Assembly (NCBI GenBank): GCA_012735535.1 | Contig: JAAYHC010000074.1 | Span: 1-42,769, forward strand | DNA length: 42,769 bases | Direction of reading: 5' to 3' | From: Bacillota bacterium | Lineage (GTDB): Bacteria > Bacillota > UBA5301 | In this document: piece by piece, positions 40,101 through 42,769 of the stretch | How positions within the stretch are numbered: the first letter of the stretch is position 1 | Layout of the letters: every line of letters begins with the position of its first letter | Notes under the pieces: model-generated | Told to the model about the DNA's origin: nothing | Databases searched by the model: none | Seen by the model: the letters and a program-made list of their open reading frames with translations, nothing else | Position numbers and translations under genes: made by a program

Positions 40101-40127
40101 GCCTGCACTTATGTGCAGGCTTTTTTT
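40101..40127 (+). terminator. Rho-independent terminator
   Basis: GCCTGCAC (40101-40108), loop TTAT, GTGCAGGC (40113-40120), then seven T residues. It ends dusB. Confidence 0.93.
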
Positions 40128-40128
40128 A

Positions 40129-40157
40129 TTGAATAAAACAGGCATTTTCAGTATAAT
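40129..40157 (+). promoter_or_regulatory. Sigma-A promoter of the AAR-like operon
   Basis: TTGAAT at 40129-40134, 17-base spacer, TATAAT at 40152-40157: near consensus. The start point would fall near 40164, a few bases before the inverted repeat at 40170-40187. Confidence 0.85.
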
Positions 40158-40169
40158 ATGGAAAAGAAA

Positions 40170-40187
40170 GTGCACAGTTTTGTGCAC
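40170..40187 (+). promoter_or_regulatory. Perfect inverted repeat, likely operator
   Basis: GTGCACA-GTTT-TGTGCAC at 40170-40187 is a perfect 7-bp inverted repeat just downstream of the predicted transcription start and 17 bases before the TTG of a helix-turn-helix gene. The position suits a repressor site, most simply autoregulation by the downstream protein. It has no T run, so it is not a terminator. Confidence 0.6.
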
Positions 40188-40204: not shown

Positions 40205-40753
40205 TTGAACTTTGTTCGTATCGGGAGCAAACTCTTAAGCCGTAATAAGATCATGCTTGCGCTCGATAAGATTTTGGAGCTCCGCGTGCAGGGCTACTCA
40301 CAATTGGAAGTTGCCAAAATGTGCGGAATTGACCGTAGTTTCATCTCTCGGTTGGAGACGCTTGGCGAGGTCAAACGCGGCAATCGGGTGGCGGTGGCCG
40401 GATTCCCGATCCAGAACACCAAAGAGCTTCGCCAAATGCTAACCGAGTTGGGGGTTGAGTATGTTCTGCTGTTGACCGAGGCCGAACGGTGGCGCTTCTT
40501 TGCCGATAAGGACGGCGCTGAAGTATTCAATGAGTTAATGCGGATCTTGGCGGATTTGCGGGACTATGATGTGGTCATTTTCTTCGGCTCGGATATGCGC
40601 AACAGCGTGATCGAATCGGTATTGGGCGATAAAGCCGTCACGGTTTCCATCGGCGAGTCCCCCATTACCGAGGATGTCTACCTCAATCCGGAATATGTGC
40701 GCCAGTTGGTAGAAACGGTGCGGAATAAGGAAGTTGGCAGGGAAGGGAGATAA
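40205..40753 (+). CDS. Small helix-turn-helix regulator (with unknown C-terminal domain)
   Basis: 182 residues. Residues about 29-52 (GYSQLEVAKMCGIDRSFISRLETL) form a clear Xre-like helix-turn-helix preceded by a basic arm (LLSRNKIMLALDKILELR). The rest (60-182) has a Rossmann-like alternation: NRVAVAGFPIQNTKELRQML, VEYVLLLTEAERWRFF, YDVVIFFGSDMRNSVIESVLG, AVTVSIGESPI. This could bind a ligand or nucleotide. TTG 40205 is the only sensible start; GGGGTGAGG lies just upstream, with a short spacing. A strong promoter and perfect inverted repeat precede it, and the stop is three bases before the next gene. It is probably the operon's repressor. Confidence 0.8.
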   Translation: MNFVRIGSKLLSRNKIMLALDKILELRVQGYSQLEVAKMCGIDRSFISRLETLGEVKRGNRVAVAGFPIQNTKELRQMLTELGVEYVLLLTEAERWRFFADKDGAEVFNELMRILADLRDYDVVIFFGSDMRNSVIESVLGDKAVTVSIGESPITEDVYLNPEYVRQLVETVRNKEVGREGR

Positions 40754-40756
40754 AGC

Positions 40757-41662
40757 ATGAAACGCGTCGTCTCAGTCAGTATCGGATCATCGGAGCGCAA
40801 CCACGCTGTGGAGATCAATGTCCTCGGAGAACAGGTCCGCATTGAACGAATCGGCACTGATGGGGACATGGAGAAGGCCATCTTACTGATCAAAGAATTG
40901 GACGGTAAGGTGGATGCCCTCGGCATGGGCGGTATCGATCTGCATATCTGGGCCGGGTCCAAGCGCTACACTTTGCGCGATGGCAAACGGATTTTCCGGG
41001 CCGCAACCAGTACGCCGATTGTCGATGGTACCGGCCTCAAGAACACTTTGGAACGTCGGGTCGTCTATCAACTGCAGGAAGATGGCCTTGTTGACTTTCG
41101 CCGGCAAAAAGTCCTTTTAACTTGTGGCCTGGATCGTTTTGGGATGGCGGAAGCCTTAACCGACTTAGGGGCCGATCTGGTACTCGGTGATCTGATGTTT
41201 GCTTTAGGCCTGGGTATTCCGATTAGAACCCTCAAAACCTTGCATCGGGTAGCGGCCGTCCTTGCACCTCTAATCGTACAATTACCTTTTGAGCTGCTCT
41301 ATCCGACCGGGGAAAAACAGGTTAAGGAACATAAACCGAAATTTGTCAAGTGGTATGAGTGGGCCGACATTATCGCCGGTGATTATCTGTTTATAAAACG
41401 GTATATGCCTGACGACCTGGGTGGAAAAACTATTTTGACGAATACGGTCACGCCCAAGGATGTTGAGGACTTGAGAAAGCGCGGCGTGTCCAGGCTGATT
41501 ACGACTACACCGGAGTTATCAGGTCGCTCGTTCGGTACCAACGTGATGGAAGGCTTGTTGGTCGCTTTGGCGGGTAAACCCTACGCAGAGTTAACCCCGG
41601 CCGACTACCAAGAGCTACTGGATAAAATCGGCTTCAAACCACGTCTAGAGCAGTTTGTGTAG
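40757..41662 (+). CDS. Protein of the family usually named quinate 5-dehydrogenase
   Basis: 301 residues. The family name is borrowed from database habit; I see no shikimate/quinate dehydrogenase motif. What is visible: an N-terminal ferredoxin-like or actin-like start (VVSVSIGSSERNHAVEINVLGEQVRIERIG), a central DALGMGGIDLHIWAGSKRYTLRDGKRIFRAA segment, VLLTCGLDRFGMAEALTDLGADLVLGDLMFALG resembling a nucleotide-binding fold, a hydrophobic AAVLAPLIVQLPFELLYP stretch, and SRLITTTPELSGRSFGTNVMEGLLVALAG near the end. SD AGGGAGA before ATG 40757. It lies between the regulator and the acyl-reductase-like gene with tight spacing, so it should act in the same pathway. Function unknown. Confidence 0.75.
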   Translation: MKRVVSVSIGSSERNHAVEINVLGEQVRIERIGTDGDMEKAILLIKELDGKVDALGMGGIDLHIWAGSKRYTLRDGKRIFRAATSTPIVDGTGLKNTLERRVVYQLQEDGLVDFRRQKVLLTCGLDRFGMAEALTDLGADLVLGDLMFALGLGIPIRTLKTLHRVAAVLAPLIVQLPFELLYPTGEKQVKEHKPKFVKWYEWADIIAGDYLFIKRYMPDDLGGKTILTNTVTPKDVEDLRKRGVSRLITTTPELSGRSFGTNVMEGLLVALAGKPYAELTPADYQELLDKIGFKPRLEQFV

Positions 41663-41685: not shown

Positions 41686-42769
41686 TTGGAAAAGTTTGCT
41701 TTTATCATTCACCCGTTAGATGCTACGGACATTTTTCGGAAGTTTCCGCGGGCCAGCAAGTTGCCCGAGTCGTTCCTGGAAAATTGTTTTCGCCACTTGC
41801 CATCATTTACCGTTTCGCGGATTAGCGGGGTCAAGTCGGCTACCGGGGCGGAGGCGGCGGGTTGGTTTATCGCCTGTCCGATTACCAGCAGATTGATGTT
41901 CGATCTGCCTGAGGAGTATGTTCTCCGCAAGATCATCGGCGCTGCCAAGATAGCCGAACGCCTTGGCGCGGGAATTGTCGGTTTGGGCGCCTTGACTTCG
42001 GTGGTCGCTGATGCCGGGGTCACCATCGCCAAGAATGTGCGGATTCCGGTTACGACCGGTAATAGTTTTACGGTTGCCACGGCGTTAAGGGGTATTAGAC
42101 ATGCCTGCCGGCTGATGGAGGTAGAGTTGGCGGAGGCCAACCTCGCCGTGATCGGGGCGACCGGTTCGATCGGCAAAGCCTGTGCCCGGATCATGGCCAA
42201 ACAGGTTAAGGAACTGACTTTGGTCGGCCGCAACAGCGAGAGCCTAGCACAACTGGCGCAAGAGATCGGCCGAGACGAAGCGGTAAAGGTGCGGGTCAGC
42301 ACCGATATCAGCTCAGCTTTGAGCCAAGCGGACGTGGTGATTACGGTCACCAGCGCGGTTGATACGGTGATTAAGCCGCACTACCTCAAATCAGGAGCGA
42401 TCATCTGTGATGTTGCCAGGCCGCGCGATGTATCCCGCTTAGTAGCGGAGGCGCGGAAAGATGTGCTGGTTTTTGAAGGAGGCGTGGTCCAGGTGCCTGG
42501 GCCGGTGAATTTCGGTCTAAACTTTGGTTTCCCGCCAGGCACAGCGTATGCCTGCATGGCCGAGACGATGATTCTAGCCTTGGAGCAGCGGTATGAGTCC
42601 TTCAGTCTCGGTCGCGACTTATCGGTAGAGACAATTATGGAGATCGACCGGTTAGCCGACAAGCATGGTTTTAAGTTAGCCGGTCTACGTAGTTTCGAAC
42701 GCGCTTTGGGAGAAGAAGAAATCTTGGCCATCAAGCAACGGGTCAAGGGAACCAGGGCTATGGCCGCAG
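41686..42769 (+). CDS. Acyl-ACP-reductase-like / COG5322-type dehydrogenase (partial, runs off window)
   Basis: 361 codons read to the window edge without a stop. From memory of the cyanobacterial long-chain acyl-ACP reductase (AAR), similarity runs along most of the chain: VKSATG, GLGALTSVVAD, TTGNSFTVATALRGI, then AEANLAVIGATGSIGKACAR (Rossmann, NADPH site), VFEGGVVQVPG, and AYACMAETMILALEQRYESFSLGR. Cys290 in YACMAE sits where AAR has its acyl-thioester Cys294. AAR reduces fatty acyl-ACP or CoA to aldehyde. Firmicute relatives are often called shikimate or predicted amino-acid dehydrogenase. Start: TTG 41686 is 12 bases after AAAGGAG; ATG 41674 abuts that SD. The substrate is not known. 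Confidence 0.8.
   Translation, partial: MEKFAFIIHPLDATDIFRKFPRASKLPESFLENCFRHLPSFTVSRISGVKSATGAEAAGWFIACPITSRLMFDLPEEYVLRKIIGAAKIAERLGAGIVGLGALTSVVADAGVTIAKNVRIPVTTGNSFTVATALRGIRHACRLMEVELAEANLAVIGATGSIGKACARIMAKQVKELTLVGRNSESLAQLAQEIGRDEAVKVRVSTDISSALSQADVVITVTSAVDTVIKPHYLKSGAIICDVARPRDVSRLVAEARKDVLVFEGGVVQVPGPVNFGLNFGFPPGTAYACMAETMILALEQRYESFSLGRDLSVETIMEIDRLADKHGFKLAGLRSFERALGEEEILAIKQRVKGTRAMAA

Follow-up and report, generated by a model that had tools for sequence, protein, structure and literature searches.

A predicted acyl-thioester reductase in an HTH-DUF301-AAR operon of Bacillota: putative reductase half of a split PigE/TamH-type route from acyl-ACP to amine

The window analysed here is a contig of 42,769 nucleotides from a Bacillota genome, taken at its whole length. 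Its 3′ end carries a three-gene operon, HTH-DUF301-AAR, whose last gene encodes a protein resembling acyl-ACP reductase (AAR). The features of the locus are collected in Table 1. The gaps within the operon are 3 nt between the HTH and DUF301 genes and 23 nt between the DUF301 and AAR genes. The gene order dusB-HTH-DUF301-AAR-greA-lysS is recurrent among relatives, and Desulfotomaculum-type loci keep AAR in the absence of DUF301. The original prediction had assigned the gene to an operon of a spore-forming Firmicute; operon membership is borne out, and the genome encodes SpoIIE. An Rfam search gave no match.

Table 1. Features of the operon at the 3′ end of the window.
Feature	Position	Strand	Remarks
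Intrinsic terminator	40101..40127	+	Behind dusB; sets dusB apart from the operon
Operon promoter	40129..40157	+	Sigma-A-type, TTGAAT-17-TATAAT
Predicted operator, 18-bp palindrome	40170-40187	.	GTGCACAGTTTTGTGCAC; 5′ of HTH gene
HTH regulator gene	40205..40753	+	First in operon; HTH_3 N-terminus, unassigned C-terminus
DUF301 gene	40757..41662	+	301 aa; conserved operon partner without Pfam or NCBIfam family
AAR-like acyl-thioester reductase gene (predicted)	41686..42769	+	Clipped by contig end; finishes 3 codons on, contig C39
Dinucleotide loop GATGSIG	42154..42174	+	= SeAAR 162-GATGDIG-168; alignment
Cys290 codon, predicted thioester nucleophile	42553..42555	+	= SeAAR Cys294, PigE Cys296; alignment

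The reading frame of the AAR-like protein is open as originally described. The missing end, GLS-stop (...MAAGLS-stop), is supplied by contig C39 from this genome, which has a 127-bp overlap with the window's contig, so that the product comprises 364 residues. Residues are numbered here from TTG 41686. In the list of open reading frames it begins at ATG 41674, which coincides with the sequence AAAGGAG; as relatives share the start at TTG 41686 and AAAGGAG lies about 12 nt upstream of it, TTG 41686 is the likely start. Contig C39 continues with greA and then lysS. A promoter for greA, TTGACA-17-TATAAT, is located at the end of C39 (L003, reverse strand, joining the window at 42769), with its first hexamer overlapping the AAR stop codon. 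Co-transcription with AAR is therefore unlikely to be the main mode of greA expression. Among relatives, a conserved protein of about 327 residues without a Pfam family is encoded at L024 (5424-6389) and 17 other loci, of Sporomusa type and others, mostly in the dusB-HTH interval. In another locus (L080, 2220-6472) this interval holds two large proteins of 417 and 1001 residues with no NCBIfam match.

The model of DUF301 has a pLDDT of 90.7, and its best fold matches, with TM scores of 0.43-0.51, include AAR and the carmabin TAD domain. Two pairs of motifs in DUF301 and AAR echo each other (PIVDGSGL with VTTGNSYT, and FGTNVMEAVLVAL with YACMAETMILAL); if these echoes are real, Asn262 of DUF301 would occupy the position of the AAR cysteine. 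DUF301 might at most be a distant paralog of AAR: the fold and the motif echoes speak for it, but neither hhalign nor hmmsearch supports the homology. DUF301 may be related to a deinococcal family annotated as quinate 5-dehydrogenase (PMC9425974).

In Pfam, the AAR-like protein matches only Shikimate_DH and other Rossmann families. The NCBIfam matches are led by PigE (NF053554; E=1e-67, 229 bits, cut-off 850), followed by TIGR04058 acyl-ACP reductase (8e-36, 124 bits, equivalog cut-off 449.7) and, in third place, HemA. Comparison with PDB sequences gives the order PigE (4ppm), cyanobacterial AAR (SeAAR, 2e-25), the TAD domain of the carmabin pathway and glutamyl-tRNA reductase, the last of which matches the middle section only. 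An AlphaFold model (pLDDT 92.5, pTM 0.91) has the SeAAR structures as its best fold matches, with TM scores of 0.74-0.77 over the whole protein length, and 9e4u thereafter; ordinary characterised dehydrogenases reach only about 0.25-0.4. The AAR-like frame is thus real, and similar proteins are found in 239 of the 399 genomes of the phylum. The likeness to cyanobacterial AAR that had been claimed stands for the fold and the thioester-cysteine site; the closest characterised relative, however, is the reductase domain of PigE/TamH. Because the protein misses the TIGR04058 threshold, and because it falls below the PigE cut-off and consists of the reductase alone, with the aminotransferase in a separate gene, it is left out of both families. 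By sequence, it is a relative of the cysteine-dependent acyl-thioester reductases, AAR-like as a working term yet outside the AAR family.

A profile of 68 relatives places Cys290 in one column with SeAAR Cys294 and PigE Cys296, as had been proposed for Cys294, and 62 of the 68 aligned rows have a cysteine there. The earlier claim would have fallen with a displaced Cys290 or with best matches to a characterised amino-acid dehydrogenase; neither was seen. In SeAAR, the acyl group is bound as a thioester to Cys294, the dinucleotide sits at GATGDIG, and its phosphate is held by R189, R193 and R314 (PMC7089970). The GATGSIG loop is intact in the present protein, in agreement with the earlier claim, and the three arginines correspond to R182, S186 and R310, so that two of the three NADPH-phosphate arginines are kept. 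S186 is unusual, its column being K or R in 57 of the 68 rows. Tyr247, which is required for acyl binding in SeAAR, is replaced by Arg245, and hence the acyl pocket may differ from that of SeAAR. The SeAAR residue Arg73, which contacts the aldehyde-deformylating oxygenase (ADO), is Pro75 here.

The palindrome upstream of the HTH gene is strongly conserved. With up to two mismatches, it occurs upstream of 72 of the 80 HTH orthologs that have sufficient upstream sequence, compared with none of 80 equal-length controls from within genes, and it is found in none of the shuffled upstream regions. Sixteen of the 17 loci without DUF301 retain it. Within one mismatch, the operon's copy has no counterpart in its own genome, where the four further sites, each with two mismatches, all lie within coding sequence. 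We propose that the HTH protein binds this palindrome, which would make it the operator of the operon.

A scan of 160 genomes of the phylum found 64 sites in 56 genomes, with four for a reversed-pattern control. Twenty of the 64 sites, chosen outside known cassette positions, were inspected. Four of them turned out to be cassettes, and all of the other 16 precede a gene for an aminotransferase, AAR, an aminotransferase-AAR fusion, an alpha-oxoamine synthase or fabH. The operator stands before a class-III aminotransferase alone in four genomes (G001, G142, G086, G117), before AAR alone in one (G161) and before a fusion in three (G139, G067, G150), while in G081 one operator is followed by adjacent class-III aminotransferase and AAR genes. 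In five others (G002, G151, G082, G118, G041; loci L295, L305, L309, L311, L312) it precedes an alpha-oxoamine synthase of the BioF/Kbl/serine-palmitoyltransferase type, and none of these five has an AAR match in the search of the phylum genomes. These synthases may offer another way of making a long-chain amino compound.

The remaining two sites, both before fabH, connect the operator with fatty-acid synthesis (FAS-II). In G024, the order is operator-fabH-fabK-fabD-fabG-acpP-fabF, then a second operator, HTH-DUF301-AAR and greA, each gene from fabH to fabF scoring above one NCBIfam cut-off or more. G106 has operators before fabZ and before the series fabH-fabK-fabD-fabG-acpP-fabF. The two FAS-II operons lie at 2454-10299 of L314 and 672-6384 of L315, and one of them leads into HTH-DUF301-AAR; this linkage concerns two of the inspected genomes only. 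We found no description of the operator, the regulator or the clade of solo AARs in a literature search conducted mostly without subscription papers, which makes the novelty of the regulon provisional.

AAR-like genes are common in Bacillota, including Moorella, Sporomusa, Carboxydothermus, Desulfotomaculum, Thermoanaerobacter and others, and also occur in Armatimonadota MAGs; DUF301 is found in 290 of the 399 genomes of the phylum. As the contig search used the motif ACMAETM and is biased toward cysteine-bearing copies, 60 DUF301 loci were drawn at random from the 125 listed. In this census, 48 loci have the cysteine and four another residue (Ala, Trp, Trp, Glu), that is, Cys in 48 of the 52 loci having a residue at the Cys290 column; three loci are cut or too degenerate, and five have no AAR match. 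Some lineages keep the operon with an AAR that has lost the cysteine (to Ala, Trp, Ser or Glu) or the glycine loop; loss of the cysteine would call for a different function or for decay. Such degenerate, Cys-less copies lie between DUF301 and greA in eight loci (L008, L121, L124, L125, L126, L129, L131, L137). The glycine loop is frequently missing from degenerate copies in this slot, and several of the genomes concerned carry a fusion elsewhere. Taken over the inspected genomes with a lost or degenerate slot AAR, most have such a fusion.

The aminotransferase-AAR architecture is known from PP_2782, TmFusion, TsFusion and TfFusion, for which the activity shown is that of the transaminase, the Thermaerobacter and Thermincola fusions transaminating aliphatic aldehydes; the AAR domain of these fusions is assigned to COG5322 (PMC10829540). 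PtTamH, a characterised protein of the same architecture, combines thioester reduction with transamination (PMC9594044), as does PigE, with its domains in reverse order; purified PigE failed to carry out the reduction in vitro, and activity was seen in lysate (PMC8341465). In five of the loci studied here (L122, L123, L127, L128, L196), the slot 3′ of DUF301 is occupied by a class-III aminotransferase-AAR fusion. Among 19 genomes picked mostly for weak or multiple AAR matches, 18 have a long frame (866-1080 residues) with an AAR match, in the slot or elsewhere. All 21 aligned fusions retain the cysteine, the glycine loop and the T[TS]GNS motif. In the tree, the AAR domains of the fusions form a clade of their own (100/93) and the degenerate slot copies group with the solo AARs; SeAAR and PigE sit on very long branches, and their placement is unsure. 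Of 16 unlinked fusion genes, 12 carry the palindrome close to their start. At L236 and L237, the longest open reading frame begins several hundred bases 3′ of the palindrome, and this distance weakens the link between operator and fusion in these two loci. No general conserved neighbours of the unlinked fusions were found. Most of the Proteobacterial plasmid matches bear the annotation aminotransferase class III.

A genome seldom has both a fusion and an intact solo AAR. A further AAR-like match is present in three of the 170 genomes whose solo AAR is intact, compared with 52 of 228 others, as raw counts that ignore shared ancestry. The genome of the window was not scored as two-copy, given the overlap of its contigs.

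This genome encodes five class-III aminotransferases. The one on contig C30 shares 54-58% identity with the solo aminotransferases under operator control, a value that the other four clearly fall short of, and its top match in NCBIfam is the aminotransferase domain of PigE (2.4e-152). Both halves of a reductive-amination pair, the AAR of the window and the C30 aminotransferase, are thus encoded in the genome. No operator was found upstream of the C30 gene, so co-regulation of the two halves is not seen in this genome, and the neighbouring NAD synthase and S8 peptidase genes do not indicate a pathway. Beyond the S8 peptidase (subtilase), the same region (L252, 8420-13444) has an aldehyde ferredoxin oxidoreductase gene, and SpoIIE is nearby. 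A DUF2229 search, used as a test for PlsA, returned short proteins only. In G310, a similar aminotransferase (L123b, 51%) lies beside a fusion, and a C30-type aminotransferase may therefore have another job. The C30 enzyme is probably the partner of AAR here.

We consider it probable that the AAR-like protein supplies the reductase of a split PigE/TamH-type route, in which acyl-ACP is turned into an aldehyde and the aldehyde into an amine, within a small FAS-II-linked regulon. An acyl group, most likely from FAS-II acyl-ACP, would be transferred to Cys290, and hydride from NAD(P)H bound at GATGSIG would release the aldehyde. A separate class-III aminotransferase would then probably turn the aldehyde into a primary amine, and the two proteins together would amount to a split PigE/TamH. 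The operon's own HTH regulator would bind the palindrome, the same element that in relatives precedes aminotransferase, fusion, alpha-oxoamine synthase and fab genes. Homology, active-site residues and fold argue for the reductase chemistry, and FAS-II linkage and the family suggest the acyl-ACP substrate. For the amine product, the pointers come from relatives, with their fusions, adjacent genes and common operators. Of the original prediction, the thioester-reductase core is retained; the kinship to PigE/TamH and the regulon of fatty-acid synthesis had escaped it.

The fate proposed earlier for the aldehydes, namely alcohols, wax esters or ether lipids, appears unlikely. The evidence for the reductase would fit it equally well, the aminotransferase of this genome has no operator of its own, and the aldehyde ferredoxin oxidoreductase near that gene indicates that other enzymes also handle aldehydes. 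However, neither the operon nor the operator sites inspected yielded a gene for such a fate; what those sites precede are aminotransferase, fusion, alpha-oxoamine synthase and fab genes. In relatives, the fused enzymes, common operators and gene adjacency all indicate transamination to an amine. It is also quite improbable that the AAR-like protein mainly serves DUF301 and HTH as a structural or sensing partner, reporting acyl-thioester levels with catalysis secondary. The lineages that keep the operon despite an AAR without cysteine or glycine loop would be accounted for in this way, as would the operators before fab genes in two genomes. Yet the full site is kept in most copies, Desulfotomaculum-type loci have AAR without DUF301, and where a copy lacks the cysteine, its genome often has a catalytic fusion at another locus, which suggests decay after replacement. 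An amino-acid, shikimate or GluTR-type dehydrogenase, to which the Pfam matches would point, is very improbable: the fold and the whole-length matches to PigE and AAR argue against an amino-acid dehydrogenase, and GluTR aligns with the middle section alone. Least credible is a genuine alkane-pathway AAR with an unrecognised deformylase, since, for all the SeAAR-like fold and active site, a search of the genome for ADO was negative with a positive Synechococcus control, as the original prediction had supposed, the TIGR04058 score is far below the cut-off, and Arg73 has become Pro75.

Beyond the split route itself, the recurrence of the operator points to a route, apparently uncharacterised, by which fatty acids would become amines. 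A wider and tentative proposal is that HTH-DUF301 might be an undescribed Bacillota module tying fatty-acid synthesis to a long-chain amine or amino-ketone lipid or signal. It would sense acyl-ACP or the product, which some lineages would make with AAR plus aminotransferase, others with a fusion, and those lacking AAR with an alpha-oxoamine synthase. If the split route is correct, a function would be given to a gene family that over half of the phylum genomes sampled contain and that libraries call a generic dehydrogenase; split and fused reductive-amination enzymes would be shown to replace each other; and a new operator and regulator would be tied to fatty-acid synthesis in anaerobic Bacillota. 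The question of the operon's product becomes directly testable, involving as it does a single regulator, palindrome, enzyme pair and metabolite class.

Among known systems, PigE of the prodigiosin pathway, through its N-terminal thioester reductase domain, gives the best family match and a near whole-length alignment, and the genome of the window likewise has a PigE-type aminotransferase gene. PigE, however, has a fused aminotransferase and belongs to a pigment cluster, whereas the AAR-like protein is unfused and belongs to an HTH-DUF301 operon. Glutamyl-tRNA reductase (HemA) follows the same thioester-to-aldehyde logic with a class-III aminotransferase as partner. TamH and the Thermaerobacter and Thermincola fusions have the AAR domain with its cysteine in common with the present protein (PMC9594044, PMC10829540), but their halves are joined in one chain and here they are two separate genes. 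SeAAR (TIGR04058, PDB 6JZQ-6JZZ) shares the fold and the equivalents of Cys294, GATGDIG, R189 and R314; it differs in that identity to it is about 27%, the score is far below the equivalog cut-off, Y247 is R245 and the genome of the window has no ADO.
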